NCBI GenBank assembly: GCA_030674185.1
Contig: JAPXFY010000021.1
Span: 74,377,169 to 74,441,168 of the forward strand
DNA length: 64,000 nt
Reading direction: 5' to 3'
DNA from: Monoplex corrugatus
Taxonomy: Eukaryota > Mollusca > Gastropoda > Littorinimorpha > Ranellidae
Shown: positions 30,985-53,245 of the stretch, piece by piece
Layout: each line of letters starts with the position of its first letter
Position numbering within the stretch: the stretch's first letter is position 1
The notes under the pieces: generated by a model
The model's database searches: none
What the model was told of the DNA's origin: nothing
What the model saw: the letters and a program-made list of their open reading frames with translations, nothing else
Program-made: the position numbers and the translations under genes

Positions 30985-31021
30985 CTGCAAACAAAGTATG
31001 TTTTGGGAACTCTTCACATCT

Positions 31022-34000
31022 TTTAAGTTACCTGGGCTATAACTGCATTGTTAATTCTATTACTTGGGCTATAACAACACTTAATTCTATCATTTGGGCT
31101 ATATGTATAATTGCACTGTTAATTCTATTACTTGGGCTATAACAACACTTAATTCTATCATTTGGGCTATATGTATAATTGCACTGTTAATTCTATACTT
31201 GGGCTATAACAACACTGTTACTTTTATCACTTGGGCTATGACAACACTTAATTCGTAACAGTTAATTCTATCACCTGGGCTATAACTGCACTGTTAATTC
31301 TATCACTTGGGCTATAACAACACTTCTATCACTTGGGCTATAACACTTCTATCACTTAGGCTATAACACTGTTACTTCTATCACTTAGGCTATAACACTG
31401 TTACTTCTATCACTTAGGCTATAACACTATTACTTCTATCATTTGGGCTATAACACTTCTATCACTTGGGCTTAACAACACTGTTACTTCTATCATTTGG
31501 GCTATAACACTTCTATCACTTGGGCTTAACAACACTGTTACTTCTATCATTTGGGCTATAACACTTCTATCACTTGGGCTTAACAACACTGTTACTTCTA
31601 TCATTTGGGCTATAACACTTCTATCACTTGGGCTTAACAACACTGTTACTTCTATCATTTGGGCTATAACACTTCTATCACTTGGGCTTAACAACACTGT
31701 TACTTCTATCACTTGGGCTATAACACTTCTATCACTTGGGCTTAACAACACTGTTACTTCTATCACTTGGGCTATAACACTTCTATCACTTGGGCTTAAC
31801 AACACTGTTACTTCTATCATTTGGGCTATAACACTTCTATCACTTGGGCTATAACACTTCTATCACTTGGGCTTAACAACACTTACTTCTATCACTTGGA
31901 CTATAACACATACTTTATTCTATCACTTGGGCTATAACACTTCTATCACTTGGGCTATAACACTTCTATCACTTGGGCTATAACACTTCTATCACTTGGG
32001 CTAACAACACTTCTATCACTTGGGCTAAAACACACTGTGTTACTTCTATCACTTGGGCTATAACATTCTTCTATCACTTGGGCTATAACCACTGTTACTT
32101 CTATCACTTGGGCTATAAACACTGTTACTTCTATCACTTGGGCTATAACACTTCTATCACTTGGGCTTAATAACACTGTTACTTCTATCACTTGGGCTAT
32201 AACACTTCTATCACTTGGGCTATAACAACTGTACTTCTATCACTTGGGCTATAACAACACTGTTACTTCTATCACTTGGGCTATAACACTTCTATCACTT
32301 GGGCTATAACAACACTGTTACTTCTATCACTTGGGCTATAACAACACTTACTTCTATCACTTGGGCTATAAACACTTCTATCACTTGGGCTATAACACAC
32401 ACTTGTTACTATCTATCACTTGGGCTATAACAACACTTCTATCACTATACTGGCTATAACAACACTTCTATCACTTGGGCTATAACACTTCTATCACTTG
32501 GGCTATAACACACTTACTTCTATCACTTGGCTATAAACACTTCTATCACTTGGGCTATAACAAACTTTAAATCTATCACTGGGCTATAACAACTATGTTA
32601 CATTCTATCACTTGGGCTTATAACAACATTTTACTCTATCACCTGGGCTATAACAACATTGTTACTTCTATCACCTGGGCTATAACAACACTGTTACTTC
32701 TATCACTGGGCTATAACAACACTGTTACTTTATCACCTGGGTTATAACAACATTGTTACTTCTATCACCTGGGTTATAACAACATTGTTACTTCTATCAC
32801 CTGGGCTATAACAACATTGTTACTTCTATCAACCTGGGCTATAACAACATGTTACTTCTATCACCTGGGTATAACAACATTGTTACTTCTATCACTTGGG
32901 CTATAACAACATTGTTACTTCTATCACCTGGGCTATAACAACATTGTTACTTCTATCACCTGGGCTATAACAACACTGTTACTTCTATCACCTGGGCTAT
33001 AACAACACTGTTACTTCTATCACTTGGGCTATAACAACACTGTTACTTCTATCACTTGGGCTATAACAACACTGTTACTTCTATCACTTGGGCTATAACA
33101 ACACTGTTACTTCTATCACTTGGGCTATAACAACACTGTTACTTCTATCACTTGGGCTATAACAACACTGTTACTTCTATCACTGGGCTATAACAACACT
33201 GTTACTTCTATCACTGGGCTATAACAACACTGTTACTTCTATCACTGGGTCTATAACAACACTGTTATTATACACCTTGGGCTATAACAACACTGTTACT
33301 TCTATCACTGGGCTTAACAACACATGTTTACTTCTATCACTTGGGCTATAACAACACTGTTACTTCTATCACTTGGGCTATAACAACACTGTTACTTCTA
33401 TCACTTGGGCTATAACAACATGTTACTTCTATCACCTGGGCTATAACAACACTGTTACTTCTATCACTTGGGCTATAACAACATGTTACTTCTATCACTG
33501 GGTTATAACAACACTGTTACTTCTATCACTTGGGCTATAACAACATTGTTACTTCTATCACCTGGGTTATAACAACACTGTTACTTCTATCACCTGGGCT
33601 ATAACAACATGTTACTTCTATCACTTGGGCTATAACAACACTGTTACTTCTATCACTGGGCTATAACAACATGTTACTTCTATCACTTGGGCTATAACAA
33701 CACTGTTACTTCTATCACCTGGGCTATAACAACATGTTACTTCTATCACTTGGGCTATAACAACATGTTACTTCTATCACTGGGTTATAACAACATTGTT
33801 ACTTCTATCACTTGGGCTATAACAACACTGTTACTTCTATCACCTGGGCTATAACAACATGTTACTTCTATCACTTGGGCTATAACAACATTGTTACTTC
33901 TATCACTGGGCTATAACAACATTGTTACTTCTATCACTTGGGCTATAACAACATTGTTACTTCTATCACCTGGGTTATAACAACACTGTTACTTCTATCA

Positions 34001-34660
34001 CCTGGGCTATAACAACAATGTTACTTCTATCACTTGGGCTATAACAACACTGTTACTTCTATCACCTTGGGCTATAACAACTTGTTACTTCTATCACTTG
34101 GGCTATAACAACACTGTTATTCTATCACTGGGCTATAACAACATTGTTACTTCTATCACCTGGGCTATAACAACACTGTTACTTCTATCACTTGGGCTAT
34201 AACAACATTGTTACTTCTATCACTGGGCTATAACAACACATGTTACTTCTATCACCTGGGCTATAACAACATTGTTACTTCTATCACCTGGGCTTATAAC
34301 AACATGTTACTTCTATCACCTGGGTTAATAAAACACTGTTACTTCTATCACTTGGGCTATAAAGTTACTTCTATCACCTGGGCTTATAACAACACTGTTA
34401 CTTCTATCACTTGGGCTATAACAACACTGTTACTTCTATCACTTGGGCTATAACAACACTGTTACTTCTATCACCTTGGGCTATAACAACATGTTACTTC
34501 TATCACTTGGGCTATAACAACACTGTTACTTCTATCACTTGGGCTATAACAACAATGTTACTTCTATCACTGGGCTATAACAACACTGTTTAATTCTATC
34601 ACTTGGGCTATAACAACACTGTTACTTCTATCACTTGGGCTATAACTAGCACTGTGAATT
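31022..34660. repeat. 31-32-bp minisatellite in the cyclin B3 intron
   Basis: About 115 units of CACTTGGGCTATAACAACAC plus TGTTACTTCTAT, with short 22-bp forms (CACTTGGGCTATAACACTTC). At 31439-31820 a 54-bp dimer of one short and one long unit repeats seven times. It fills most of the intron between the exons at 35404 and 30984. Confidence 0.95.
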
Positions 34661-34839
34661 CTATTGGTGTCAACAATGAAAGTCAAGTGAATAAGGAGTC
34701 ATTACCTGTGGATCTGAGTGGTGACACTGAGTCAGTAATGTAAGTATGTATAGACACTGGGAATATTCCTGTCTTCATTGGGTTTTGGTTACAAAATGTA
34801 TCATTTTCATGCTTCATGTTATAAATGTTGCCTGAGAAC

Positions 34840-35400
34840 ATGTTACATTGTGTGTCTTGTAAAACACCAGCAAGTGGTTCACCCCTGTGTACATGTTACA
34901 TTGTGTGTCTTGTAAAACACCAGCAAGTGGTTCACCCCTTGTACATGTTACACTGTGTCTTGTAAAACACCAGCAAGTGGTTCACCCCTGTGTACATGTT
35001 ACACTGTGTGTCTTGTAAAACACCAGCAAGTGGTTCACCCCTGTGTACATGTTACACTGTGTCTTGTAAAACACTAGCAAGTGGTTCACCCCTGTGTACA
35101 TGTTACATTGTGTGTCTTGTAAACCACCAGCAAGTGGATCACCCCTATGTACATGTTACACTGTGTGTCTTGTAAAACACCAGCAAGTGGTTCACCCCTG
35201 TGTACATGTTACACCGTGTCTTGTAAAACACCAGCAAGTGGATCACCCCTGTGTACATGTTACACTGTGTCTTGTAAAACACCAGCAAGTGGTTCACCCC
35301 TGTGTACATGTTACACCGTGTCTTGTAAACCACCAGCAAGTGGATCACCCCTGTGTACATGTTACACTGTGTCTTGTAAAACACCAGCAAGTGGATCACA
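34840..35400. repeat. 51-53-bp minisatellite abutting a cyclin B3 splice donor
   Basis: About ten copies of a unit containing GTACATGTTACACTGTGTC and CACCAGCAAGTGG. The last copy runs to within about four bases of the exon at 35404. Unit length varies by a 2-bp TG in the GTGTGTC segment. It reads open in several frames on both strands, which is an array effect. Confidence 0.9.
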
Positions 35401-35403
35401 TAC

Positions 35404-35553
35404 CCATCCTTCCTCACTGCACATCTTCCTGGCAATGTACAGACAGGCGGCAGCCAGCATGCTCTCCCGATGAAAGACAAACTTGTATTCCATCAGACTC
35501 AGCTCTAGCATGAAGCGTGCCACGTACAATGTCTTCACCTCCGACTTCCCACA
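35404..35553 (-). CDS. CCNB3: Cyclin B3 exon, core of the C-terminal cyclin fold
   Basis: A 150-nt, 50-codon exon in phase 0/0, with a TTTCAG acceptor and a TGG/GTATGT donor. It encodes VKTLYVARFMLELSLMEYKF and then SMLAAACLYIARKM, the conserved helices of the cyclin C-terminal domain (the L-A-x-x-x-x-E-L-S-L-M-x-Y and AAA-x-x-L-A motifs). It ends in EEGW, which joins to TPTLEYY in the next exon. The intron beyond its donor becomes a 51-53-bp minisatellite almost at once. A perfect 38-bp hairpin lies about 130 bp upstream of its acceptor. Confidence 0.93.
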
Positions 35554-35629
35554 CTGAAATACAGAAATACATTATATTTTATATTTATATTCAGACTGCA
35601 CTCTTATCAGCAACTTATTGTGCTTAACC

Positions 35630-35815
35630 CTTTGACCCCCGCACCCTGTCCACCAGCATCCTGTGTTGCCAGCCATGCTAGCAAAGCAAAAACTGAACCC
35701 TTTGATTCTCTCACCCTATCCACCAGCCTGCAGGAAGCTAGTGGATAGGGTGAGAGAATCAAAGGGTTCAGTTTTTGCAGTTGGTGGATAGGGTGTGGGA
35801 GTGAAAGGGTTAAAC
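35630..35815. repeat. Foldback (hairpin) element with perfect 38-bp arms
   Basis: Arms 35686-35723 and 35741-35778 are perfect reverse complements with a 17-nt spacer. The arms contain the motif ACCCTATCCAC, and flanking partial copies carry the TTAACCCTTTGA-type end. It lies in the cyclin B3 intron about 130 bp upstream of the acceptor at 35554. Related sequence occurs at 17.56 kb and 21.83 kb and makes up the unit of the 43-bp array at 11.2-12.1 kb. This fits a small foldback-type non-autonomous transposon. Confidence 0.75.
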
Positions 35816-36059
35816 ACAAATACGTGTACAAAATATATTAACCCATTTCAACCAACACCCACCTTATCATGCCTGTGGGAAAAGTCGTCTGGAAATGATA
35901 CGTATCTGACTTTGATTTCATCTCGTTAGGAGTAGGCTGGTCACGCAACGTGATAGGCATCAAAAACATCCACATATACAGTAGTATACAGTATGTCAAT
36001 CATACATATTCCATAAGTGACTCACGTTCATCACATGTCCATATGTTATGTTCACTACA
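35816..36059. other. Short unique spacer
   Basis: Intron DNA between the hairpin element and the 35-bp array, with nothing recognisable. Confidence 0.4.
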
Positions 36060-36500
36060 CATCATCCACATCAGATTTATCACATTCAGTATACACATCC
36101 ACATCAGATTTATCACATTCTATATACACATCATCCACATCAGATTTATCACATTCTATACACACATCATCCACATCAGATTTATCACATTCTATACACA
36201 CATCATCCACATCAGATTTATCACATTCAGTATACACATCATCCACACAATATCACATTCTATATACACATATCAATCATTTCACATTCTATATACACAT
36301 CATCCACATCAGATTTATCACATTCTATATACACATCATCCACATCAGATTTATCACATTCTATATACACATCATCCACATCAGATTTATCACATTCAGT
36401 ATACACACCATCCACATCAGATAATTTAATCACATTCTATATACACATCATCCACAAAATTTATCACATTCAGTATACACATCATCCACATCAGATTTAT
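36060..36500. repeat. 35-bp minisatellite
   Basis: About 12 units with ATCATCCACATCAGATTTAT and CACATTCTATATACAC. Frames across it on both strands are shadows. Confidence 0.9.
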
Positions 36501-36589
36501 TTCATATACACAACAGTCCTCCATTATGACACCGGAAAAATCCCCAAGATAAAAGTCAAAATCAATTTTCATTGCTGTTCCAAAGAAAA

Positions 36590-37880
36590 CAAGGGCTACA
36601 GAATGCGAACTCTTTCGCACAATCAGCTTGATGAGTCAGATAACAAGAATCCTATTAAGAAGAATCAAAAGAGAACTAGCAGAAGAACAGTGTGGATTTG
36701 TAGAAGGGAAAGGAACTAATAATGCCATATACAACCTAAGAATTACCACAGAGACTGACAGAGGTCAATTGAGTTGAATAAGAATGTTATATTCATGCTT
36801 TGTTGATTATACCAAGGCTTTCAATCAGGTAAGACACGAAGAATTGATCAAATCAACTAGAAAGACTCAATACTGATGGAAAAGATCTACGAATAATCAG
36901 AAATATGTATTGGGAACAAACAGCAGCAATGAGAATAGAAAACATATAAGCTCTTTCCAAAAATATCAAACGAGGACTCAGGCAAGGTTGTGTTCTGTCA
37001 CCAGATCTGTTTTCACTTTACAGCGTAAACATGTCATGATGAGAAACCTAAAAGTAAAAGAATGCCTTGGATTAAAGGTTGGAGGACAAACGATAAAGAA
37101 CATTTGATATGCAGATGACACCGTGCTTATTACAGAAAATGAAAGGGACCTACAAAACCTTGTGAATATGATTGAAATAGAAAGTAAAGGGCTGGAGCTA
37201 AATAGCAGGAAGACTGAAGTCACGGTGATCAGTAAAAAACACAAAATCTCCTCATGCAAAATAACAGCAAATGGCACAACCTTGAGACAGGTTGATAAGT
37301 TTAAATATCTGGGAATGATCGTCTCACCAGATGGCAGATGCACATCAGAAATAGCCAGCAGAATCGGCCAAGCCAAAACAGCATTCAAGAAGATGAAAAG
37401 CATTCTTACCAAGAAATGCCTGTCAATTAACATCAGGGAGAGAGTCCTTGAATGTTATATAGAACTGATAATGTTATGCAGTTGTGAGGCGTGGACAGTC
37501 ATCAAGCAATGCCGAAACAAGATTGAGGCAGCCGAGATGTGGTTTCTATGAAAGATGTTGAGAGTTCCATGGACAGCAAAGAAAACAAACGACAGTCTGG
37601 ATGGAGGCAGACACAAGATCATTCATAAGGAAGATTAAGAAAGACAGGCAACATCTGTAAGCCATTTTATGAGGAAAGGGGAATTGGAGCACCTCGTCAC
37701 AACAGGAAAGCTGGAGCGAAAGAGGACCAAGTAGACCGTGGGAAAAAATATTGGATGGACTTGCAGGCTGAGGACAAAGAGGGTGGAAGATGTGCTTGCG
37801 GCAACAAGTGATAGATGCATATGGAGGGCCATGATCACCAACGCCATGTGACAGGGCACTTAATGATGGTACTGGAGCAA
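36590..37880 (+). mobile_element. LINE fragment with broken reverse transcriptase ORF
   Basis: Frames in succession read EEQCGFVEGKGTNNAIYNL, CFVDYTKAFNQV, a Y-A-D-D catalytic motif near 37110 (YADDTVLI), KTEVTVISK, YLGMIVSPDGRCTSE and AAEMWFL near 37540. These are reverse transcriptase domains 2 to 7 and the downstream region of a non-LTR retrotransposon. Several frameshifts and stops break it, so it is inactive. It lies in the cyclin B3 intron in antisense orientation. The element ends near a GATGGTAC tail. Confidence 0.85.
37123..37551 (+). pseudogene. Reverse transcriptase C-terminal segment, longest open piece
   Basis: A 142-residue open stretch downstream of the YADD motif, with VSPDGRCTSEIASRIGQAK and the downstream EAWTV and IEAAEMWFL segments. 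It is out of register with upstream and downstream parts of the same LINE. Confidence 0.75.
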
Positions 37881-38509
37881 AATCACTTTTCCCTAAAAAT
37901 ATACAAAGCATCCAGGGGGCTAGGCCATCTAGCAAGGCCAAGGTACACCTTGTGGGATTGCCCCCTGAAAATGAAGACAAGCAATTTTGGCCAGGGAAAA
38001 AGCCTCTCCTTGATGATATAAAACCCATGTCCTAATACATCAAATACATATTAACATGGCATAAATGAAATCAGTTTATATATCACTGTACTAATCATAA
38101 CAGTGGAGCACATGCACCTTGACAATACCAACAGAAAGCCCCCACTCTCCATAACTTTGGCCATAATACCCAGCACCACAAATACAGCACACAAACACTG
38201 GTATGGTCCATTTGTGTCCCCAGTTTGGCTCATCATGTCTGTTTATCATAAAATGTCTACCATACACTATTTACTTCACCTTTGGCACATTTCTCAGAGC
38301 CTGCCTTTTGTAATGTTAAAATCTCTTGTCTGAAATGTTCCATGACTTTTCTCTCACCAAGCAAGATTGATCTGTTCCCTCCGAAAATGTTCAGACCTTT
38401 TCTTTTCCCCCTTTTATTTCTGGAGAGAGGATTAGAGAGAAGCACAGACAGCGGGGTCTAAGATACCTACCTGGATTTTTGAACACCGGAAACACAAGTC
38501 TGAAAAATT
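37881..38509. other. Intron sequence between two LINE fragments
   Basis: No repeats or open frames that I recognise; possibly LINE 3' untranslated sequence. Confidence 0.35.
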
Positions 38510-39845
38510 ATGTAGAAGTAGTAGACTTCAGTTTGTAAACAAGGTAATTGATGACTGGGTCCGAATGGATCATGCAATGCATGGACAGCCCCCATTTGAA
38601 GAAATGACCGTCAATTGGCCTGTCCCAAGAGTGGTGAGGCATTGGTGCTCTGGGTCCCATCCGCACCCTCGTGGTGGTGTTATTTTTTGATACTCGATTA
38701 TCTTTCAAACACATCAGCTCCGCTGTGTATGACAGAAGATCTGACCTGTCGGCGTCACCAGGTTTGGTGTTGGCCACTGCACACTTTGTCACCACCATCT
38801 CCCTCCAGGCCGCCCTGTCTTGACTTTTGTGGACAATTTCTTGAATATTTAGGCCACTGATGCTGGTTATGTTCTCAATGTATGAGCTTGGAGGTTTGCC
38901 TTTCTTCCTTTCTGCCACTGTTTTTCCTTGAAAGATGGTTGCCATGAGGTCTGTGTTCTTCCTGTGTCACACATGGCCAATGTATTTTAATCTTCTCTTG
39001 TTCACGTCTGCTAGTAGTTTTCTGGTGGTATCAAGTTCTTCCAGGACACTTTCATTAGTTCTTCTATCTGTCCATATGACACATAGTAGTCTTCAATAAA
39101 ACCACATCTCAGCTGTCTCAATTCTTCTGCAATCAGTTTTTGTCAGAGTCCAGGCTTCGCAGCCATAAATCATGACTGGCCAGATCAAGCGTTCTAAAAG
39201 TCTAACTCTCAGGCCAGGTGGTATGCCTGTCTTTCCAGATGATGTTGAGTTTGACAATTTTTAGCTTTGCCATTCCAATTCTTATTTTGATGTCTTTGGA
39301 GCAGATTCCATCAGTTTTTACAGAACCAAGATATTTTAACTCCTTAACATTTTCTACAGGAGCTTTGTTAATTAAGATGCCATGATTGTTGTCAGAGTCT
39401 TTGCTTTTCATATGTAGCACGTTTGTTTTCTTGGCGCTCAAGTCTAAGCCAGCCCTTTTGCCTGCTGCATCTACCCCGTATAGAATTCCTTTTATGGTGG
39501 TAATGTCTGCTAGCAGCGTAGTATCATCAGCATAGCACAGGTTTGTAGGATTTTCCCCTCCCATCTTTATGCCCATGCCTTCTGTATCAGCATCTCTGAC
39601 TTGTAGATGTTAAAGACACAAGGTGATAGGATACAACCTTATCTTAACTCCTGTGTGGATGTTGAAGAATTCACATTTCTGATTGTTCCATCTAAATGTA
39701 ACCTTTTGGTCTTTATATAATGAAGCAATCGATGCAATGAGGTGTTTAGGGAAGCCCATTTTCACCATTGTGTTGAACAGATGGAGATAAATGACGCTGT
39801 CAAATATTTGTCACAGAAGATATCCGGGGTGCTAACAGCCTAACA
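38510..39845 (-). mobile_element. Second LINE fragment, opposite orientation, broken
   Basis: On the minus strand it reads LFNTMVKMGFPKHLIASIA near 39.8 kb, LCYADDTTLLADI near 39.53 kb (catalytic Y-A-D-D), VLHMKSK, LKYLGSVKTDG, CEAWTLTKTDCRRIE and a C-terminal tail through about 38.7 kb. The overall domain order matches the element at 36.6-37.9 kb and may be the same clade. Stops and frameshifts are frequent. Confidence 0.82.
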
Positions 39846-40144
39846 ACTTCATTTACACAAGAAAACAATTTATACATGAAAACTTTACCAACAATTTTAC
39901 ATCAGAAATTCAAGAAAGCTCCAAGAATTCTCAGTGTTACATACAACACAGTGGTTTTAAAGAAGCCACAGCTGGCATTTACGACATCAGACAACACCAT
40001 ATAAGGCACTGGTGGGGCACGATCACCGACACCACCTAACGCTTAATAAGAGGTCAAGTAGCACTAACTAAAGAGGCACATCTGGATAAAGGCAAACTGC
40101 CCTGTTGTCTGTGTTGTTTCCATGGATATCCATGGATTTGTGGG
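39846..40144. other. Short unique intron spacer
   Basis: Nothing recognisable apart from a GGGGCACGATCACCGACACC segment that resembles the LINE 3' ends at 37.8 and 60.2 kb. Confidence 0.35.
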
Positions 40145-42597
40145 TATGTACCATGGCTGCTAACACTGTACAGTGTGGTCACACAACATGTTCATGTACC
40201 ATGGCTGCTAACACTGTACAGTGTTGGTCACACATGTTCATGTACCATGGCTACATAACACTGTACAGTGTTGGTCACACAACATGTACCATGGCTACAC
40301 AACACTGTACAGTGTGGGTCACACATGTTCATGTACCATGGCTACACAACACTGTACAGTGTGGGTCACACAACATGTACCATGGCTACACAACACTGTA
40401 CAGTGTTGGTCACACAACACGTACCATGGCTACACAACACTGTACAGTGTGGGTCACACATGTTCATGTACCATGGCTACACAACACTGTACAGTGTGGG
40501 TCACACAACATGTACCATGGCTACACAACACTGTACAGTGTGGGTCCACAACATGTTCATGTACCATGGCTACACAACACTGTACAGTGTTGGTCACACA
40601 TGTTCATGTACCATGGCTACACAACACTGTACAGTGTTGGTCACACAACATGTTCACTACCATGGCTACACAACACTGTACAGTGTTGGTCACACATGTT
40701 CATGTACCATGGCTACATAACACTGTACAGTGTGGGTCACACATGTTCATTACCATGGCTACATAACACTGTACAGTGTGGGTCACACAACATGTTCACA
40801 TACCATGGCTACACAACACTGTACAGTGTGGGTCACACATGTTCATGTACCATGGCTACACAACACTGTACAGTGTGGGTCACACAACATGTTCACATAC
40901 CATGGCTACACAACACTGTACAGTGTGGGTCACACATGTTCATGTACCATGGCTACACAACACTGTACAGTGTGGGTCACACATGTTCACGTACCATGGC
41001 TACATAACACTGTACAGTGTGGGTCACACATGTTCACGTACCATGGCTTAACTAATAACACTGTACAGTGTGGGTCACACATGTTCATGTACCATGGCTA
41101 CACAACACTGTACAGTGTGGGTCACACATGTTCACGTACCATGGCTACACAACACTGTACAGTGTGGGTCACACAACATGTTCACATACCATGGCTACAT
41201 AACACTGTACAGTGTGGGTCACACATGTTCATGTACCATGGCTACACAACACTGTACAGTGTGGGTCACACATGTTCATGTACCATGGCTACATAACACT
41301 GTACAGTGTGGGTCACACAACATGTTCAATACCATGGCTACATAACACTGTACAGTGTGGGTCAACACACATGTTCATGTACCATGGCTACACAACACTG
41401 TACAGTGTGGGTCACACAACATGTTCACATACCCTGGCTACATAACACTGTACAGTGTGGGTCACACAACATGTTCACATTACCATGGCTACACAACACT
41501 GTACAGTGTGGGTCACACAACATGTTAATGTACCATGGCTACAAACACTGTACAGTGTGGGTCACACAACATGTTCACATTACCATGGCTACACAACACT
41601 GTACAGTGTGGGTCACACAACATGTTCATGTACCATGGCTACACAACACTGTACAGTGTGGGTCACACATGTTCATGTACCATGGCTACACAACACTGTA
41701 CAGTGTGGGTCACACAACATGTTCATGTACCATGGCTACACAACACTGTACAGTGTGGGTCACACAACATGTTCACGTACCATGGCTACACAACACTGTA
41801 CAGTGTGGGTCACACAACATGTTAATGTACCATGGCTATATAACACTGTACAGTGTGGGTCACACAACTTGTTCATGTACCATGGCTACATAACACTGTA
41901 CAGTGTGGGTCACACAACATGTTAATGTACCATGGCTACACAACACTGTACAGTGTGGGTCACACAACATGTTAATGTACCATGGCTACACAACACTGTA
42001 CAGTGTGGGTCACACAACATGTTAATGTACCATGGCTACATAACACTGTACAGTGTGGGTCACACAACATGTTCATGTACCATGGCTACACAACACTGTA
42101 CAGTGTGGGTCACACATGTACCATGGCTATATAACACTGTACAGTGTGGGTCACACATGTTCATGTACCATGGCTACACAACACTGTACAGTGTGGGTCA
42201 CACATGTTCACGTACCATGGCTACACAACACTGTACAGTGTGGGTCACACATGTTCATGTACCATGGCTACACAACACTGTACAGTGTGGGTCACACAAC
42301 ATGTTCACGTACCATGGCTACACAACACTGTACAGTGTGGGTCACACAACATGTTCACATACCATGGCTACATAACACTGTACAGTGTGGGTCACACATG
42401 TTCATGTATCATGGCTACATAACACTGTACAGTGTGGGTCACACAACATGCATGTTCATGTACCATGGCTACATAACACTGTACAGTGTGGGTCACACAT
42501 GTTCATGTACCATGGCTACACAACACTGTACAGTGTGGGTCACACAACATGTTCATGTACCATGGCTACATAACACTGTACAGTGTGGGTCACAACT
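40145..42597. repeat. About 47-bp minisatellite with a 14-bp palindrome in every unit
   Basis: About 52 units with TACCATGGCTACACAACACT, GTACAGTGTGGGTCACACA and ATGTTCATG. Each unit contains the palindrome ACACTGTACAGTGT or its core CACTGTACAGTG, plus CCATGG. Unit length alternates mainly through presence or absence of ACA in CACACAACATG. Frames reading HGYTTLYSVGHT on the plus strand are array readings. Confidence 0.95.
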
Positions 42598-42847
42598 TGC
42601 ATGTTCAGCCAACCATCAAATCCACATTAGGGCTACACACTGTTAAAAAACAAGTGTAATTAAAAGGACAACAGTGAAAACCAAGCACTTTTCTCATATG
42701 TACATACGTTCGCACAAGATGAAATCTTCACATTCACAACACAAAAACGCACCAATTTCACCACACATCATCTACCTACATCGGTTATTTATCCCAATTT
42801 CAATTGTGTACTGTCTACTGAGCAGATAGAAATGTTAGCGTACTGAC
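42598..42847. other. Intron DNA just downstream of the exon at 42848
   Basis: About 250 bp between the 47-bp array and the cyclin exon; no motif recognised. Confidence 0.4.
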
Positions 42848-43003
42848 CCTGGCATAGCGACGCAAGAAGCGGTAGGAGATTGGACGTCCCAGGTCAAAGT
42901 CGACCCTCTTGAACAGCTCCCTCTCCATAGCCTCAAACTGGACACGGTCGTAGGCATGGTCACAGATGTAGGTGAAGTCATCTATGGCAGGTGCAACACG
43001 CTC
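42848..43003 (-). CDS. CCNB3: Cyclin B3 exon, end of N-terminal fold and linker to C-terminal fold
   Basis: A 156-nt, 52-codon exon in phase 0/0, with an acceptor CCTAACAG/GAG and donor AGG/GTCAGT. It encodes ERVAPAIDDFTYICDHAY, the usual helix 4 segment of cyclin B3, and DFDLGRPISYRFLRRYAR, the start of the second cyclin fold. The first 25 nt of the exon and the last 25 nt of the preceding intron form the unit of a tandem array running up to about 43797, so about 15 further copies of this same acceptor lie upstream in the intron. Only the copy at 43003 continues into the rest of the exon. Confidence 0.93.
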
Positions 43004-43797
43004 CTGTTAGGACAGGTTATCACCATTACATCTATGGCAGGTGCAACACGCTCCTGTTAGGACAGGTTATCACCATTACATCTATGGCAGGTGCAACACG
43101 CTCCTGTTAGGACAGGTTATCACCATTACATCTATGGCAGGTGCAACACGCTCCTGTTAGGACAGGTTATCACCATTACATCTATGGCAGGCACAACACG
43201 CTCCTGTTAGGACAGGTTATCACCATTACATCTATGGCAGGTGCAACACGCTCCTGTTACTGTGTTAGGACAGGTTATCACCATTACATCTATGGCAGGT
43301 GCAACACGCTCCTGTTAGGACAGGTTATCACCATTACATCTATGGCAGGTGCAACACGCTCCTGTTAGGACAGGTTATCACCATTACATCTATGGCAGGT
43401 GCAACACGCTCCTGTTAGGACAGGTTATCACCATTACATCTATGGCAGGCACAACACGCTCCTGTTAGGACAGGTTATCACCATTACATCTATGGCAGGT
43501 GCAACACGCTCCTGTTACTGTGTTAGGACAGGTTATCACCATTACATCTATGGCAGGTGCAACACGCTCCTGTTAGGACAGGTTATCACCATTACATCTA
43601 TGGCAGGTGCAACACGCTCCTGTTAGGACAGGTTATCACCATTACATCTACGGCAGGTGCAACACACTCCTGTTAGGACAGGTTATCACCATTACATCTA
43701 TGGCAGGCACAACACGCTCCTGTTAGGACAGGTTATCACCATTACATCTATGGCAGGTGCAACACGCTCCTGTTAGGACAGGTTATCACCATTACCA
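42983..43797. repeat. 50-bp tandem array that duplicates the cyclin B3 splice acceptor
   Basis: About 16 copies of a 50-bp unit (two are 58 bp through an 8-bp insertion). On the minus strand each unit is 25 nt of intron end, with a branch-point-like TGATAAC and the acceptor CCTAACAG, followed by the first 25 nt of the coding exon. The copy nearest 42983 continues into the real exon; the others lie in the intron. A 258-bp block (four 50-bp units plus one 58-bp unit) is itself duplicated at 43141-43398 and 43399-43656. Confidence 0.93.
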
Positions 43798-44109
43798 CAG
43801 GCAGCACTCCCTCCCAAAAACATCACATCATGATCACTACTCTATACAATAACAGACCTGTATACGCTAAAAAAAATAATTCCTGGAGTAATAAGGAGGC
43901 CAAAAATCAGCAATATGAAATAAAAATCAGTAATCTGGGCACTAACGTAGCTACCCAAAAACAATCGTCACTCACGCACTCAGTAACTGAATACATCACC
44001 CATGACAACATGAATCAGATGCACACATTTTGTCTACACAGTAATACACAACCACGTCTACATGCAACAATGCTCTCTTGTATGCCGGATTCTTTCCCAT
44101 GGCTCCCTG

Positions 44110-44672
44110 CAGGACAGTGTTAATTACTGTACAGACAGGGCAAGACAGCACCCAGCAGGACAGTCTTAATCACTGTACAGATAGGGCAAGACAGCACCCA
44201 GTGCAAATTACTGTACAGACAGGGCAAGACAGCACCCAGTGTAAATTACTGTACAGACAGCACCCAGTGTAAATTACTGTACAGACAGCACCCAGTGTAA
44301 ATTACTGTACAGACAGCACCCAGTGTAAATTACTGTACAGACAGGGAAGACAGCACCCAGTGTAAATTACTGTACAGACAGGGCAAGACAGCACCCAGTG
44401 TAAATCACTGTACAGACAGGGCAAGACAGCACCCAGTGTAAATTACTGTACAGACAGGGCAAGACAGCACCCAGTGTAAATTTCTGTACAGACAGGGCAA
44501 GACAGCACCCAGTGTAAATTACTGTACAGACAGGGCAAGACAGCACCCAGTGTAAATTACTGTACAGACAGGGCAAGACAGCACCCAGTGTAAATTTCTG
44601 TACAGACAGCACCCAGTGTAAATTACTGTACAGACAGCACCCAGTGTAAATTTCTGTACAGACAGGGCAAGA
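44110..44672. repeat. 38-bp minisatellite
   Basis: About 16 units with AGACAGCACCCAGTGTAAAT and TACTGTACAGACAGGGCA; short units lack the GGGCAAGACAG part. The preceding 300 bp (43800-44109) are unique intron with no gene seen. Confidence 0.9.
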
Positions 44673-45169
44673 CAGCCTGCATATAAACCCAACATGATGA
44701 GGTCTTGAGGTTCTACCTAACTTACAGGTTCTATGTAATATCAATCCTCAAAGTTTGCAGTCTGGACTATCAGCCTGTGTCTTGTTTCAAATATTTTACC
44801 AGCCAAAATACATGTCCCGCCACACAATAGGAAAGTGCTGCTAGAGATTTTACTTGCATACATGTATACCAACTGATTAGAATTGTTGGGAGTGGGGGTG
44901 GAGCGAACTCTGGTATAGTCTGTTAATTTCATTTATCTTCATGAATTAGGTTCAGACTGTCTGGCCTCCAGGTGTATTGCAACCTCCTTGGCCTGTGACA
45001 TTTCTCATACAGATTGTGCATGTCAAAATAAACTACTACTTCCATTTGGGATGAAAGCTTCATTTACTCCCTGACAACTTGTTTTTCTTCCCAGCAGAAA
45101 TTTCTGACCCAAGGGCTGTAGCTTTTGGGCACTAATCACAGTGACACGTGGTTTTGTAACAGGAAGTTT
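44673..45169. other. Unique intron sequence
   Basis: Non-repetitive; only short open frames on the minus strand, no domains. Confidence 0.4.
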
Positions 45170-45390
45170 GTTATCATTGCTTAAAGCCCAGCTGACTGCA
45201 CACACTTATCAGGGCTATAAAAAAAACTCAAAAAAGTACATCATACCTCACTGCATGGGGTGAGGGGGGGGGGGGTGTAAAACACTATCACCACCACCAA
45301 GAACCTGGAAAAGAAAATTCAGTATGCATATTAACGCATTCGCACAAGTGATCTAAGGATATGCTCCTGGCATCGATTCTTATGTTCAGT
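45170..45390. repeat. Dispersed repeat, 5' fragment
   Basis: Shares GCTTAAAGCCCAGCTGACTG and TATCAGGGCTATAA with the start of the 62-kb copy, then GAAAATTCAGTATGCATATT. It is interrupted by a poly-G run near 45266-45276 and lies within 50 bp of the donor side of the cyclin-box exon. Confidence 0.5.
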
Positions 45391-45437
45391 TTGAATGGCA
45401 AGGAGTAGAAACAAACTTCACACTGCAAAAATCTTAC

Positions 45438-45671
45438 ATCATATTTCGCAGCCAGATAGAGAGCAGCAGCTCCCACCAACTGCACATTTTCACGTGGCAA
45501 GTCTGGCATTGCGGCCATGTATGTGTCCATCAGCTTGACGGCCAGGTACAGGGTCTCATGGTTAAGCTCAAAGTTCTCCTGCACTTCCACCATCCAGTCC
45601 ACCAGCACTGCACGCATCCTCTGGTTCACATTGGGCTGGTTGGACATGTAGGGGTTCAGCATGAACTTCAC
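45438..45671 (-). CDS. CCNB3: Cyclin B3 exon encoding most of the N-terminal cyclin fold
   Basis: A 234-nt, 78-codon exon in phase 0/0, with a GTCGCAG acceptor and a GAT/GTAAGA donor. It contains MRAVLVDWMVEVQENF, the MRAIL-type helix-1 motif that contacts the cyclin-dependent kinase, followed by ELNHETLYLAVKLMD, which is characteristic of cyclin B3 as opposed to A or B1/B2. It ends LVGAAALYLAAKYD, helix 3 of the fold. The conserved Arg, Asp-Trp and Lys of the cyclin box are present. The product would activate Cdk1 (or Cdk2) in mitosis and meiosis. This is the strongest evidence for the gene's identity. Confidence 0.95.
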
Positions 45672-45989
45672 CTGCGACAAGTCACAGCAAAGTTTTGTTT
45701 GGTTTGCTTGCTTGATGTTGCTAAACTGTGTTCAATAAACAACTGTGTGTCACTGGCACCAACTGGCAAGGACAGCAAGGCTGTTGTTGTTGCTCATCAT
45801 CTGTTCTTTTTTCATTTTCAAGCTTGGTCATGCCTGAAACTGTATCTAAGGCACGTTCATTTTAGTCTGGATCCACTATGTGTGTGTGCTGTTCTGGCTC
45901 ACACTCTTAATAATGTTAAGTCTGCACACTCTGGTGCACGGGGAGATAAAAACTACAGGATTTATTGAAAATGTACTTTAGGCAAAATG

Positions 45990-46150
45990 GACCAGTCAGA
46001 GTAGTCAGACAGACAAATTAAAAAGAGGGAACACAAAGAAAAGCAACAGAAGCAAACATTGCGGGGAAAAAGGAAATTTCTAACACAATTTCACAAGATG
46101 GGAATACTATTACTGTACTGAAACATTCCTTGGCATCTTCAAGAGGAGCA
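45990..46150. repeat. Dispersed repeat, 3' fragment
   Basis: Shares AGGAAATTTCTAACACAATT and GATGGGAATACTATTACTG with the end of the 62-kb and 52-kb copies. It lies on the other side of the cyclin-box exon from the 45.17-kb fragment and is probably an independent truncated copy. Confidence 0.5.
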
Positions 46151-46916
46151 AGCTGTCAACAACATTGGTACCATGTTGCACAATGTCTCAGGTTCAACTG
46201 TTAATGACAAACTCAACTATTCTCCCCAAAAAAGTACTTGGTTCATTATTATCTCAGGTGGCTGAAATATATTATTACATGTAGAATGGCAGGGTTTGTA
46301 GCAAAGACAATGATAATATCAAGTGCAACAGATGTCATTTTCCCCACTTCATCCAATTGCTGTTTTCTTTTTGTTTAAATACAAAACCACATTCTGTTTG
46401 TAAATAAGCAAGAGCTAAATTCTAAACTTGCTCAAATCCAAACCCTTATATGGATAGTAATCAACAAGTTAACTATCTTCAGCACAGATTCATCAAACAA
46501 TTTACCACTGTTAGTTCTGATCAACTGTATTGTTTTGACTTGATATACTACTAGGACCAAAATGTGACCCAAATGAGCCATAAATCATCAGGCAGACTCC
46601 TAAAGCCGGGGCAACATGTTATTTGTAGACAATGCCCAAATGGGAGGGAGGTGGCAGGGATCCTATGAAACTAAACTGACACCACCTGAATGCTTGGAGC
46701 ACCGAGATGGACAGCAGCAAATAGGTCTGTTCTTTATGTTCAAGCTGGGATTGAACTTGAGTAGAAACACCAGATCTCAAGTCCTCAGCTCTATCAAAAG
46801 ACCTTGTCTGCATTAAAGTCTCTACCACCTCACGGTCATTTCCCCAACAAAGGATTATAGGATTACCATTATCCTACCTTTCTCATCTCTCACATCCTTT
46901 TCTTAAGACCCGCCCT
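46151..46916. other. Unique intron sequence
   Basis: Contains a segment near 46730-46800 (CTGGGATTGAACTTGAGTAG) with weak B-box character and short frames on both strands. No element or exon could be assigned. Confidence 0.35.
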
Positions 46917-47080
46917 GTGCCATTACTTCTACCGAGTGGTGGCCTAAGGGATAACGTAAGCTAGACCCGAGTAGGGTCAGACTCCCAGTTGGACAGGGTT
47001 TACATTCCACTCTGCGACTCCTGAACGGTGGTATAGGTGCTAGTCTTTTCAGTTGAGACTGATCAAGGTTCTATCATTAT
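46917..47080 (+). mobile_element. Possible degenerate tRNA-derived SINE
   Basis: CGAGTGGTGGCCTAAGGGA resembles an A box and GGGTTTACATTCC a degenerate B box, spaced as in tRNA-derived SINEs, followed by ATTATTATTGG. The similarity is weak. Confidence 0.35.
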
Positions 47081-47125
47081 TATTGGTGTTAAAAACTCAC
47101 ATGGCTGCTTGAAACCATGTCAGAG

Positions 47126-48503
47126 CTACAGTACACCCATCTCAAATAAGCCATCTAAACACATCAACGACCCTACACCCATCTCAAACAAGCCATCTAA
47201 ACACATCAACGACCCTACACCCATCTCAAACAAGTCATCTAAACACATCAACGACCCTACACCCATCTCAAACAAGTCATCTAAACACATCAACCACCCT
47301 ACACCCATCTCAAACAAGTCATCTAAACACATCAACGACCCTACACCCATCTCAAACAAGCCATCTAAACACATCAAGACCCTACACCCATCTCAAATAA
47401 GCCATTAAACACATCAACGACCCTACACCCATCTCAAACAAGCCATCTAAACACATCAACCACCCTACACCCATCTCAAATAAGCCATCTAAACACATCA
47501 ACGACCCTACACCCATCTCAAATAAGCCATCTAAACACATCAACGACCCTACACCCATCTCAAACAAGCCATCTAAACACATCAACGACCCTACACCCAT
47601 CTCAAATAAGCCATCTAAACATCAACGACCCTACACCCATCTCAAACAAGCCATCTAAACATCAACGACCCTACACCCATCTCAAACAAGCCATCTAAAC
47701 ACATCAACGACCCTACACCCATCTCAAACAAGCCATCTAAACACATCAACGACCCTACACCCATCTCAAACAAGCCATCTAAACACATCAACGACCCTAC
47801 ACCCATCTCAAACAAGCCATCTAAACACATCAACGACCCTACACCCATCTCAAATAAGCCATCTAAACACAACGACCCTACACCCATCTCAAATAAGCCA
47901 TCTAAACACATCAACGACCCTACACCCATCTCAAACAAGCCATCTAAACATCAACGACCCTACACCCATCTCAAACAAGCCATCTAAACACATCAACCAC
48001 CCTACACCCATCTCAAATAAGCCATCTAAACATCAACGACCCTACACCCATCTCAAATAAGCCATCTAAACACATCAACGACCCTACACCCATCTCAAAC
48101 AAGCCATCTAAACATCAACGACCCTACACCCATCTCAAACAAGCCATCTAAACACATCAACCACCCTACACCCATCTCAAACAAGCCATCTAAACACATC
48201 AACGACCCTACACCCATCTCAAACAAGCCATCTAAACATCAACGACCCTACACCCATCTCAAACAAACCATCTAAACACATCAACGACCCTACACCCATC
48301 TCAAATAAGCCATCTAAACACATCAACGACCCTACACCCATCTCAAACAAGCCATCTAAACATCAACGACCCTACACCCATCTCAAACAAGCCATCTAAA
48401 CACATCAACGACCCTACACCCATCTCAAACAAGCCATCTAAACACATCAACCACCCTACACCCATCTCAAACAAGCCATCTAAACACATCAACGACCCTA
48501 CAC
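47126..48503. repeat. 42-bp minisatellite, left part
   Basis: About 33 copies of a 42-bp unit with ACACCCATCTCAAACAAGCC, then ATCTAAACACATCAACGACC. Some units lack a 4-bp ACAC or vary CGACC/CCACC and AACAAG/AATAAG. Because 42 is a multiple of 3, all frames without a stop stay open; on the minus strand it reads a 14-residue repeat with GVGSLMCLDGLFE. It is interrupted by the TIR element. Confidence 0.93.
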
Positions 48504-49345
48504 TAGCAATGCCGCACGAAAAATTGAAATTGGGTTTTGAGTTTTAAAATTTATATGGTTTTGAAGATATTGTTATTCTGAGTAAAAAGCAGTTTAAATT
48601 TTTCAAATCGGACTAATAGTTCATGAGATATTCCAATTTGAAGCGTCAAAAATTTCTTAAATTTTGGTACCATGTTTTAGTGGGACAAAGAAGGACAAGT
48701 GTCACAGAACAAACTCATCAAATGGCATGGTATGCTGATTTTGCTGGAAATGACATTTATTTTGTAATTGTGAGAGACAGACCGGATCAAAAGTCATGAA
48801 ATTTTGGTCGTTGATGTATTTTGGCGTGCCGAATTGAATAAAACCATTATTGGAACTCTGTGACGAGCCATTTTTGTCTTATTACAGGAAACATGTGATA
48901 TTTTGGATGTTTTATCAGTGTTTCATTAATAATTGCCCATATTGTATTAATAACAGACAAAAATGAAGCTAGAAACAAAACAATCATTTCAAGAGATAGA
49001 TATAAAATCATTTTGCTCATCGTTCAAGTGTCTTATTACTGCAAATTAAACCAAAAAAGTCACGACTCGCTACTTCAGTAGTCTTATGAATAACTTTTAA
49101 TATTTCATCAGTTTCTGTACATATAAAAGGACATCTGAGAATCAATGACTTCTGGAATCACTTAAATAATTGAAATATTAAAAATTACTGCATGCTTTTA
49201 TGCTGCAATCCTTCCAAAAATATCATCCGATCAAAATTCTACTAAAAACTAAACACACACACATACACATGCACACACACATAACACACATACACATACA
49301 GAGAAAAACATAACAGACAAGATTTATGTACGTTACATTTGATTT

Positions 49346-50130
49346 TTATTTTATACATCAGTCTTTAAAAAATAGACTAAACTGTCTGTGGATGAGTCAA
49401 GTCCCCGAACACTTAGCACAGCCAGCGTCCAAAGAAAACTTCAGGAAGGATATGGGACCACTCACCATTCAGGAACAGGTCACTTAACTCCTACAATAGA
49501 GAAATATATGAATTTCTGCATAATATATACTATTCATTGAGAGATTGGAAAGGAAAGGAAACCATAATGCATAGTCTTCACAATAACATTACTTTAACAT
49601 TAAGCCCAAACTCGCGACTTTGATTTTTAGCATATTACTGTAAAAATCCACCAAAGCAGAGCAATCCTGCTAAGTATTTCCAGTGTACTCTTGCCCTTTA
49701 ATACAAATCAATAACAACAGGCTACTATTAAATAAGATGCAATCTTCCCTTTAAAACAAATTAATGACAATGGGCCTATCCTTTTCAGATATTGACTACA
49801 AATTGAAACAACTACATAAGCTAATGGATGGCCTACTTTACAAATAATACAACTCATAGCCTTCTATTCAGTTTCAAAACCTAAATGAAGAATATTATAA
49901 CAATGAACAGAAGATTTTGTTTTGTGACATTCTAAATCTCTGTGTGTGTTAGTGTGTGTGCGCGTTGTCAGAGAGAGAGAGAGACTCAGACTCAGAGAGA
50001 GAGTGTGTTGTCAGAGAGAGAGAGATGGAGAGAGAGAGAGACAGAGAAAGAGAGAGAGGATCATGCCTGTTAACAACTTGGATATGAATGTATTGTGGCC
50101 TATTTACTTTATTTATTCATTTCTTGTTCT

Positions 50131-50175
<45 letters not shown>

Positions 50176-50260
50176 CATGTCAAGGAAAGTACAATAACTT
50201 GCACAGAATTGTTTGTTGATTTGAAAAAAAAAATATTTAGACTTATTCATTCATTCATTT

Positions 50261-50291
<31 letters not shown>

Positions 50292-50300
50292 TTGGGGAGG
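49346..50300. other. Interior of the TIR element: AT-rich DNA and GA microsatellites
   Basis: This part is not shared with the copy at 25.46 kb. It holds an AT-rich stretch with no usable open frame, then GA/AG microsatellites at about 49970-50060, 50132-50170 and 50264-50291 that encode Arg-Glu runs in every reading. No gene is seen. Confidence 0.5.
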
Positions 50301-51060
50301 CGGGTATGCGCACCCCTCTGTTTGGGCAAACCCATTTTCCACGGCCCGGCGAAGCACGTCGAGCACATAGTATTTTTAGTAGTAAGCTCGCCCGTCGTGG
50401 GGTGAGCAGATCTACACTGCGACATACAAATAGCATGATCTCGGGGAGGAAATGGTTGACGAATCTAGCTTCGGCTGACAACTCCGAATCGAGTTCAAAC
50501 GCAGTTGTCCTTTTCTTCAAAAATACAGTGTCACAGATAAAACAGAACTTGATCTGTTGATTGCTAGATCTAGTCTTTGTCCGACAACGTAAAACATGCC
50601 GAGCTGAAACTTGTACAGCGTTCTGTTACGCCGGTAGTAGGCCTATGGCGTCGGCACATTCCGACGTTGTTTTGCTACTGATCTGGAACAGATCCTCATG
50701 TAAAAAGTTGCCGTACGGCCGTATTTTACTTCAAATTGATTTCATATTACACCTGCATATAGAAAAAAGTATGCAAAATCGAATCCCGCCGACGAGAAGT
50801 TCCAAAAATGGCGACTTGCCTGCAAACTTTTCCGATGAAAAAAAGCAAAACTTTGGAAGCGTCGATCTCGGTTCGAAACTGGCACACATAGCTCTCGTCG
50901 GGATATATCATTTTGTTACATTGATTCTCATTGGCTGCAAAATTACAATGTGATTGGTTCACAAATATAGCCGTACCGACCGAAATAGTGAAGCACACCA
51001 AACAAACTTCGATTCTAAACGCATACCATATCCGCGATTACGCCCGAAACGCGGATTTTC
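50300..51060 (-). promoter_or_regulatory. CpG-rich block with paired CCAAT boxes (candidate promoter)
   Basis: Conspicuously richer in CpG than its surroundings, with motifs such as CCGTACGGCCG and CGCCGACGAG. On the minus strand CCAAT occurs twice 23 bp apart (about 50934-50961), followed by TTTCGAAC and a GCCATTTTT motif. These are seen directly; promoter function is inference. It lies inside the TIR element and upstream of the cyclin-box exon at 45671, in the sense orientation of cyclin B3. Confidence 0.3.
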
Positions 51061-51298
51061 GACTTTCTCATCAAATAACTAATTCCATTTTCGCTGTAAG
51101 TACATAAAATGGCAATCATTCAAATCTTTATTCATTTCTGATTCATATAAGAAAAAAAATAAGGATGAAACACCGCTTAAAGAGGCAGTAATACTTGATT
51201 GAACTGAAGACCCCCTAGTTTTGCGGCCGGCCCCCGTTTTTGCCCAGTTTTTGGTACCACAAATTTGACGTCGCGTTTCGGTTCGCACGGCATTGCTA

Positions 51299-52178
51299 CC
51301 TACACCCATCTCAAATAAGCCATCTAAACACAACGACCCTACACCCATCTCAAACAAGTCATCTAAACACATCAACGACCCTACACCCATCTCAAACAAG
51401 CCATCTAAACACATCAACGACCCTACACCCATCTCAAATAAGCCATCTAAACATCAACGACCCTACACCCATCTCAAACAAACCATCTAAACACATCAAC
51501 GACCCTACACCCATCTCAAACAAGCCATCTAAACACAACGACCCTACACCCATCTCAAATAACTTTAATAAGCCATCTAAACACATCAACCATCCTACAC
51601 CCATCTCAAACAAGCCATCTAAACACATCAACGACCCTACACCCATCTCAAACAAGCCATCTAAACACATCAACCACCCTACACCCATCTCAAACAAGCC
51701 ATCTAAACACATCAACCACCCTACACCCATCTCAAACAAGCCATCTAAACACATCAACCACCCTACACCCATCTCAAACAAGCCATCTAAACACATCAAC
51801 GACCCTACACCCATCTCAAACAAGCCATCTAAACACATCAACGACCCTACACCCATCTCAAACAAGCCATCTAAACACATCAACGACCCTACACCCATCT
51901 CAAACAAGCCATCTAAACACATCAACGACCCTACACCCATCTCAAACAAGCCATCTAAACACATCAACGACCCTACACCCATCTCAAATAAGCCATCTAA
52001 ACACATCAACGACCCTACACCCATCTCAAACAAGCCATCTAAACACATCAACGACCCTACACCCATCTCAAATAAGCCATCTAAACACATCAACGACCCT
52101 ACACCCATCTCAAATAAGCCATCTAAACAACGACCCTACACCCATCTCAAACAAGCCATCTAAACACAACGACCCTAG
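51299..52178. repeat. 42-bp minisatellite, right part
   Basis: About 21 further copies of the same unit as at 47.1-48.5 kb, resuming exactly at the target duplication of the TIR element. One unit holds a small insertion (AACTTTAAT near 51560). Confidence 0.93.
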
Positions 52179-52184
52179 GGGAAA

Positions 52185-52645
52185 ATTGTAAAAGAAACTT
52201 AAGTAAGCATATTGCATTCATGCAGATAATCAAAGGATATGACTGGCACTGGTCACTCAGTCAAATTTAACACCAGGGACATTAAGAAAAATCAAACCTG
52301 AATACAAATGCCAAAGTGTAACTGAGCAAACAAAACATATAAAAACTGGTCTATAGTACCAAAACAATGCCCCCTAAGCAGCTCACGTCCTTAGAACTAC
52401 AAATGCAATTAATATACATACCCAGCTGACTGAAGAATGTTAAGGCTTTATAAAAACACACAGGTAAATGAACCACCAAGGGAGAAAATGGCAGCAGAAC
52501 AGATGACAGGAAGCAAAGCTGAAACAGTGAGAGAAAAGAGGAAATTTCTACACAAATTTTCCAGAAGGTAGGGGGATACTATCTGTACTGAAACAGTCTC
52601 CAGAAGGTAGGGGGATACTATCTGTACTGAAACAGTCTCCAGAAG
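52185..52645. repeat. Dispersed repeat, partial copy, with 39-bp internal duplication
   Basis: Starts directly at the end of the 42-bp satellite and shares CCTGAATACAAAT and the GGGGGATACTAT end with the 62-kb copy. A 39-bp segment (AGAAGGTAGGGGGATAC and following) is present twice at about 52563-52640. Confidence 0.55.
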
Positions 52646-52979
52646 ATTTGTGTACAACATTCACTCAGGCTTAGTCAATGAAAAAAAAGTGATGGAAACC
52701 AGTTGTCCCTGGCAAAACATGTGGAAATCTACTGTGACATGTACACAAAACTTCAAACAAAAATCTCCACTCATTCACACAAACTAAAACCAAACCCAAA
52801 CCACCACTGCACCACAAAAAGGTAGGGGGGAAGAAACAAAGAAAACCTGAACAACAAACAAAAACCCCCAACATAAAAGCAACTACACAATGGTGGCACC
52901 GTATTATGATGCCAAACTGATCAAACCCAATCTACTAACAGATGTAATAGAACCAAACATGTACACATGTCTCACCGAC
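52646..52979. other. Unique intron sequence next to the exon at 52980
   Basis: An A-rich and C-rich stretch on the plus strand with no open frame of note. Confidence 0.4.
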
Positions 52980-53081
52980 CTCCCTCTCCTTGTAGTACTC
53001 AAAGATATCGTACGCGTACAAGGGCTCAAAATGCAATTCCGTTTCAATGTCGCCATCTATATCATCCACACCTTCTGGCAC
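52980..53081 (-). CDS. CCNB3: Cyclin B3 exon leading into the cyclin box
   Basis: A 102-nt, 34-codon exon in phase 0/0 with a CCAG acceptor. The donor is the non-consensus GAG/GTCGGT; a better-looking GTGAGA lies 4 nt further but breaks the frame. It encodes an acidic stretch followed by YAYDIFEYYKERE, the conserved segment just before the first cyclin fold, equivalent to the P-Y-x-x-D-I-x-x-Y/H-x-R-E region of mitotic cyclins. Joined to the next exon it reads YKERE-VKFMLNPYM, as expected for cyclin B3. The intron that follows is 7.3 kb and contains the 42-bp satellite and the 2.8-kb inverted-repeat element. Confidence 0.88.
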
Positions 53082-53180
53082 CTGGAAAACAGCAATACAG
53101 AATTTCACTAGGATTACAGCTTTCTTCATATACTACTTTCCATATTTTTTGGAAAGAATAAGCATGTGCTGCATGCATTG

Positions 53181-53183
<3 letters not shown>

Positions 53184-53233
<50 letters not shown>

Positions 53234-53245
53234 CGCGCGCGCGCA
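53184..53245. repeat. TG/GC microsatellite
   Basis: A TG run of about 40 bp followed by GCGCGCGCGCGC, a classic Z-DNA-forming type of sequence. It lies in the intron upstream (gene sense) of the exon at 53081. Confidence 0.9.

Follow-up and report, generated by a model that had tools for sequence, protein, structure and literature searches.

The window analysed here, a 64-kb stretch of DNA, carries on its minus strand a cyclin B3 gene, of which nine exons were delimited by tblastn with related proteins and by splice phase. The same exon search found no start codon for cyclin B3 within the window. The gene consists of the following features.

23897..62953, minus strand: cyclin B3 gene, extent found (tblastn with relatives, splice sites and phases, Pfam)
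62953-62867, minus strand: exon 1 (E1)
61080-60734, minus strand: exon 2 (E2)
57158-57074, minus strand: exon 3 (E3)
53081-52980, minus strand: exon 4 (E4)
45438..45671, minus strand: exon 5, with donor GAT|GTAAGA, paired with the array described below
43004..45437, minus strand: intron 5, 2434 nt with the last acceptor, containing 15 upstream acceptors
42848..43003, minus strand: exon 6, 156 nt, beginning and ending in phase 0 (identified by its open frame and its similarity to related proteins)
35553-35404, minus strand: exon 7 (E7)
30855..30984, minus strand: exon 8, with a one-base frame break
23984-23897, minus strand: exon 9 (E9)

Exon sizes across the gene range from 85 to 347 nt, and exon 6 is flanked by introns of 2434 and 7294 nt. 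An earlier reading of the DNA from its letters alone (the sequence-only reading) had placed an exon at 43003 and given the intron as 45438-43003. More exactly, exon 6 runs from 43003 to 42848 and the preceding exon ends at 45438.

The joined exons 4-7 encode the Pfam domains Cyclin_N (5.7e-43) and Cyclin_C (1.9e-15), and the top named database matches, among those listed, are cyclin-B3-like proteins. The best of the listed matches is a cyclin-B3-like protein of the neogastropod Babylonia areolata, 71% identical across 96% of the region used as query. Judged by its domains and named matches, the gene is cyclin B3, as the sequence-only reading had called it. In a protein tree of the window protein and 28 relatives chosen out of 186, the cyclin B3 of the window pairs with Babylonia with a support of 99/93; the gene is likely that of a sea snail. 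Entries named Branchiostoma were absent from the 120 matches listed of 1272 and from the 120 listed of 1605, many of the entries being nameless. A lancelet origin of the window is ruled out by the position in the tree together with the lack of Branchiostoma among the listed matches.

A 50-bp array over the exon 6 acceptor

The end of intron 5 and the start of exon 6 lie within a tandem array, with the following features.

42979..43795, minus strand: splice-junction minisatellite, 16 copies of the exon 6 3' splice site (Tandem Repeats Finder, unit split, acceptor list, unit variants)
43769, 43719, 43669, 43619, 43569, 43511, 43461, 43411, minus strand: acceptors, first exon base
43361, 43311, 43253, 43203, 43153, 43103, 43053, 43003 (terminal), minus strand: acceptors, first exon base, continued

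Tandem Repeats Finder (TRF) places the array at 42979-43795, with a period of 50, 16.0 copies and 93% matches, and gives a second period of 258 bp (3.0 copies, 99%), which is a higher-order repeat. In the direction of transcription each unit opens with the first 25 nt of the exon, GAGCGTGTTGCACCTGCCATAGATG, and closes with the last 25 nt of the intron, TAATGGTGATAACCTGTCCTAACAG, and this split is exact. The sequence-only reading had described an array of about 16 acceptor copies, built of units half intron and half exon, and both parts of that description are confirmed. Exon 6 proper is preceded by 15 full units, of which 13 measure 50 bp and two 58 bp, which gives 16 acceptors for this exon, 15 upstream and one terminal, with AG|G at all 16 unit junctions.

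The exonic half of the repeat unit corresponds to the first 25 nt of exon 6, and these 25 positions match exon 6 fully in 11 of the 15 upstream units. The 25 nt preceding the AG|G junction are the same in 14 of the 16 acceptors, the exceptions (43511 and 43253) being those that come after an 8-nt insertion. Since the 50 nt centred on the exon 6 acceptor junction recur in 13 further copies with at least 40/50 matches, the array is not due to chance. The unit variants are ordered along the array: a TG pair occurs in units 2, 7 and 12, units 5 and 10 carry the 8-nt insertion, and unit 3 is unique. Units 2-6 differ from units 7-11 at only 2 of 258 sites. Growth of the array was apparently recent and proceeded block by block, and the two 258-bp blocks with two site differences would lend indirect support to length instability.

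Exon 6 codon 4 (42992-42994), which lies in the repeated part, encodes Ala, where the relatives have a nearly invariant Pro; its equivalent in the upstream units encodes Ala in 12 of 15 and Val in the other three. By eye, branch-point candidates resembling the TNAY-like consensus are seen at about -23 and -14 in each unit. Folding of a single unit is close to that of shuffled sequences, both as RNA (z -0.09, 92/200 shuffles as good) and as DNA (z -0.91, 29/200 as good).

Coding outcome of the sixteen acceptors

Splice sites were scored with an approximate weight matrix. A score of 6.91, which lies between the extremes for the nine acceptors of the gene (2.16 to 10.86), is shared by 14 of the 16 array acceptors, and the two that follow the 8-nt insertion, 43511 and 43253, score 0.27. 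The proposal that every upstream acceptor is equally good is thus correct for 13 of the 15, which score as the terminal one does, and fails for the other two. Among 150 AGs scored across intron 5 and exon 6, seven others, all of them in intron 5, outscore the array acceptors. The top-scoring AG of intron 5 is at 45304 (13.6), 133 nt past the exon 5 donor. Splice-site strength was rejected as the selector of the last acceptor, because the terminal site equals 13 others and is exceeded by seven further AGs. RNA structure was also rejected as the selector, the 953-nt RNA of array plus exon having a z of -1.23, with 2/20 shuffles as good.

When the upstream acceptors were modelled singly with the authentic donor, a premature stop resulted in 15/15 cases, and the reading frame is kept by one acceptor out of 16, the terminal one. 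In 13 of these cases translation ends at the TAG of ATAGATG in the following unit, where the sequence-only reading had predicted the stop; acceptors 43569 and 43311 depart from that prediction, as they read through a 58-bp unit with the frame shifted and meet a stop 11 codons further on. The premature stops sit 134 to 850 nt ahead of the exon end, and mRNAs that use the upstream acceptors would therefore decay by the usual distance rule for nonsense-mediated decay. The exon measures 156 nt with the terminal acceptor and 206 to 922 nt with the upstream ones, and acceptors 43053 to 43203 give exons of 206 to 356 nt, which is about the range of the gene's own exons. The dilemma posed by the sequence-only reading, that either the last site is chosen or transcripts are lost, was soundly put.

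Tandem repeats at the other junctions

A second junction of the gene is also duplicated.

30731..30892, minus strand: 81-bp unit in two copies over the exon 8 donor (TRF, splice sites, unit comparison)

The exon 8 donor, CCA|GTAAGT, is present in both copies of this unit, and the copies differ by one mismatch. Past the first donor, the frame of the conserved part of the exon runs straight into a TAA, so that at exon 8, as at exon 6, only the choice that keeps the exon minimal avoids a stop. The conserved Ile of most relatives is retained in the intronic copy, and the exonic copy encodes Thr in its place. The one-base frame break of exon 8 lies near 30960, flanked on either side by sequence that matches relatives, and is possibly an allele, decay or an assembly error.

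Counting tandem repeats with a period of 10 or more (TRF), we found that they cover 42.75% of the window (1-64000), mostly with units of 20-100 bp, and 44.5% of the cyclin B3 intron sequence, with 63 of the 1379 exon nucleotides. Two of the 17 splice junctions, the exon 6 acceptor and the exon 8 donor, lie inside such repeats (binomial 0.0046). When the set of junctions was slid along the gene in 50-nt steps, two or fewer fell in repeats in 1.4% of placements, with a mean of 7.3. Likewise, a copy with at least 40/50 matches elsewhere in the window exists for 41% of 400 random positions, against 2/17 junctions. Repeats are thus kept out of the junctions, with exons 6 and 8 as exceptions, which would be expected if selection removed most junction duplications as usually harmful.

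Two further arrays come close to junctions: that at 34831-35399 ends 4 nt short of the exon 7 donor, and that at 23988-24262 comes within 3 nt of the exon 9 acceptor, providing the GT-rich tract ahead of it. The window also contains transposon remains, with a DDE_3 transposase domain above the Pfam cut-off at 6873-7427 (minus strand), and reverse transcriptase pieces, two above the cut-off at 37108-37548 and 54711-55151 (both plus strand) and two below it at 39205-39609 (minus strand) and 54324-54599 (plus strand).

Comparison with known junction repeats

The closest known systems are the 'mirage' minisatellites of lancelets, described in the globins BflGb6 and BflGb9, in Adh3 and in TnC, with similar repeats in PGBD5; in the cited sections of these reports splicing is not disturbed, and length instability is noted (PMC3087553, PMC3902484). 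As excerpted there, mirages are, like the exon 6 array, short tandem repeats lying across the border of an intron and an exon, with units carrying AG/GT signals. BflGb6 repeats the intron end plus the exon start, exactly as the exon 6 array does, and BflGb9 duplicates the exon end, as is seen here at exon 8. The 50-bp unit falls within the range of the Adh3 mirage (10-72 bp). The structural marks of a mirage are found here: the unit spans the exon-intron boundary and its copies carry splice signals (AG|G in 16/16, and GTAAGT of exon 8 in 2/2). The exon 6 array is thus a mirage in the structural definition, with more copies than the cited lancelet examples and outside the chordates. It has 16 acceptors, against six and three units in the BflGb6 haplotypes, its host is by the protein tree a gastropod and not a lancelet, and its growth in higher-order blocks can be seen.

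In humans, variable internal tandem repeats at exon-intron boundaries accounted for 27 intron changes after manual inspection, with units averaging 30 bp in four copies, located in recent segmental duplications, and often with alternative transcripts, according to the passages available from that study (PMC2812944). These are, like the exon 6 array, minisatellites at boundaries that change the available splice choices. The duplicated-site experiments of Reed and Maniatis (1986), as summarised in part in PMC9225289, also set two or more near-equal 3' sites in competition for one donor; here the array is natural, numbers 16 sites and has one that is coding-competent. Intron gain by tandem genomic duplication (PMC4974935, PMC3443670) is alike in that small duplications move splice signals, but in the extracts of those papers a new intron arises by duplication of a piece of exon containing AGGT, whereas here an existing junction is multiplied. 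As an explanation of the array it was rejected, since no new intron is needed for the frame and the duplication lies within the end of an existing intron. A worm study of intronic minisatellites, to judge from its excerpt, concerns other repeats. In the open-licence literature, the lancelet papers and the human boundary-repeat study were the direct precedents found for tandem repeats at splice junctions; no mollusc case came up there, and a search aimed at decoy or arrayed acceptors gave no result.

Predicted selection of the terminal acceptor

The reading we favour, which we consider moderately likely, is that of a splice-junction minisatellite whose last copy, the only one to keep the frame, is predicted to be the normal choice of the spliceosome, the upstream copies being weak decoys bound for decay. 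The array may have arisen by a small tandem duplication over the intron-exon border, followed by unequal exchange in blocks. Because the introns on both sides are long, exon 6 is probably recognised across itself, that is, by exon definition. Exon definition is reported to replace intron definition around an intron length of 200-250 nt, which both flanking introns far exceed, and the splice sites closest across the exon to be preferred, in the cited portions of PMC9225289. The acceptor nearest the exon 6 donor yields the smallest exon and is the one closest to the purine-rich tract of exon 6. The longest purine run of exon 6, GGAGAGGGAG, is in the exon body, and two joined units hold only AGGAG; the smaller exon and this run would together favour the last acceptor. 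The 15 upstream copies would then act as weak decoys, their transcripts, with a premature stop, being cleared by nonsense-mediated decay.

The selection may be incomplete. The decoy exons of 206 to 356 nt resemble the exons of the gene, so that exon size alone cannot exclude acceptors 43053 to 43203. For 3' sites in long-intron genes, the preference for the upstream site is described in human data as only 'significantly reduced', with no reversal shown in the part of the article cited (PMC9225289). A duplication of an intron end plus exon start in BRCA1 gave an mRNA containing the duplicated part, not quantified in the text seen in excerpt (PMC11839443), and 66% of the human repeat-driven intron changes had support for a repeat-retaining transcript, again from a partial text (PMC2812944). 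In view of the reduced but not reversed 3' bias, the BRCA1 case and the human boundary-repeat transcripts, some leakage to upstream acceptors is plausible, mostly to the nearest decoys. On the side of the terminal acceptor, the relatives lack an insert at the exon 5/6 junction in 9/9 aligned cases, and a loose pattern for an insert-free junction fits 179 of 186 relative proteins. The constrained core of the exon, the lancelet arrays reported to leave splicing undisturbed, the exon-minimal choice at exon 8 and the scarcity of repeats at the junctions also speak for it.

Alternative explanations

The sequence-only reading had suggested that the array acts as a leaky rheostat, in which the destroyed share of transcripts rises with copy number and array length sets the output of cyclin B3. 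The equal scores of 13/15 upstream acceptors (approximate matrix) and the stops lying 134 nt or more ahead of the exon end in 15/15 would permit this, and it is consistent with the alternative transcripts that often accompany human boundary repeats (PMC2812944) and with intronic repeats that affect splicing in ABCA7 and TERT, all as given in partial sources. The lancelet precedents, however, are reported in the cited extracts to splice normally (PMC3087553, PMC3902484), and the strong under-representation of repeats at the other junctions of the gene suggests a cost rather than a use. We regard the rheostat as doubtful, the loss of a variable share of transcripts as unsupported, and a tuning of cyclin output by copy number as possible but likewise unsupported. 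A bolder extension, distinctly less likely still, is a heritable, length-unstable splicing dial. Array length would set how large a share of transcripts is lost to decay and would also set a series of isoforms carrying in-frame inserts of 10 residues, the first eight codons evolving in step with the repeat and not with the remainder of the gene; this draws on the fact that in each unit a full acceptor is followed after 30 nt by a donor-like site. Two GT sites per unit would close exons of 24 nt (donor 2.79) or 30 nt (donor 4.65), and each unit could then be an in-frame microexon adding 8 or 10 residues (for example ERVAPAIDVM) to the cyclin box. All 30 modelled single inclusions (15 units with two donors) stay open, and the donor ATG|GTGATA, at 4.65, comes near the weakest of the authentic cyclin B3 donors, which score 5.0 to 9.9 (approximate matrix). 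We nevertheless consider microexons very improbable: the other donor reaches only 2.79, the second donor of a unit is only 20 nt from the next acceptor, so that splicing would have to pass over one unit or more, and the nine aligned relatives have no insert there, though relatives need not carry the array.

Alternatively, the locus might be decaying or redundant, such that the array is tolerated because splicing no longer matters. This would fit the frame break of exon 8, its exonic Thr against the conserved Ile kept in the intronic copy, and an end branch in the tree longer than that of the sister (0.72 vs 0.27). Against it, eight of the nine exons are open and in phase, exon 8 being the exception, all 16 sites of the eight introns are GT or AG, and the single-base break may be a consensus error. 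In columns that are nearly invariant among 27 relatives, the window protein departs at 8/89 positions, no more than its neogastropod relatives (Babylonia 10/93, P0122 6/93), the other relatives having 0 to 10 departures. We think a non-functional copy improbable and take the gene to be functional, the break in exon 8 being possibly a consensus error. That assembly produced the array, or its number of copies, has some precedent, as tandem repeats give assembly errors (PMC6868369) and one lancelet array was misassembled in a draft (PMC3087553), both from excerpts. The ordered unit variants and the presence of TRF arrays throughout the window speak against such an artefact, to which we give very little credence, and even with a shorter array the junction would stay duplicated.

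Implications

With 16 near-identical acceptors, of which the last alone is usable for the protein, the exon 6 array amounts to an extreme natural duplicated splice-site experiment. It could gauge how strongly exon definition decides among identical 3' sites, for which the human data give a reduced bias only. Were it confirmed, junction arrays of the lancelet type would be known from molluscs as well, and it would mean that coding sequence at the exon start has been drawn into repeat homogenisation, with the change of a nearly invariant Pro to Ala.
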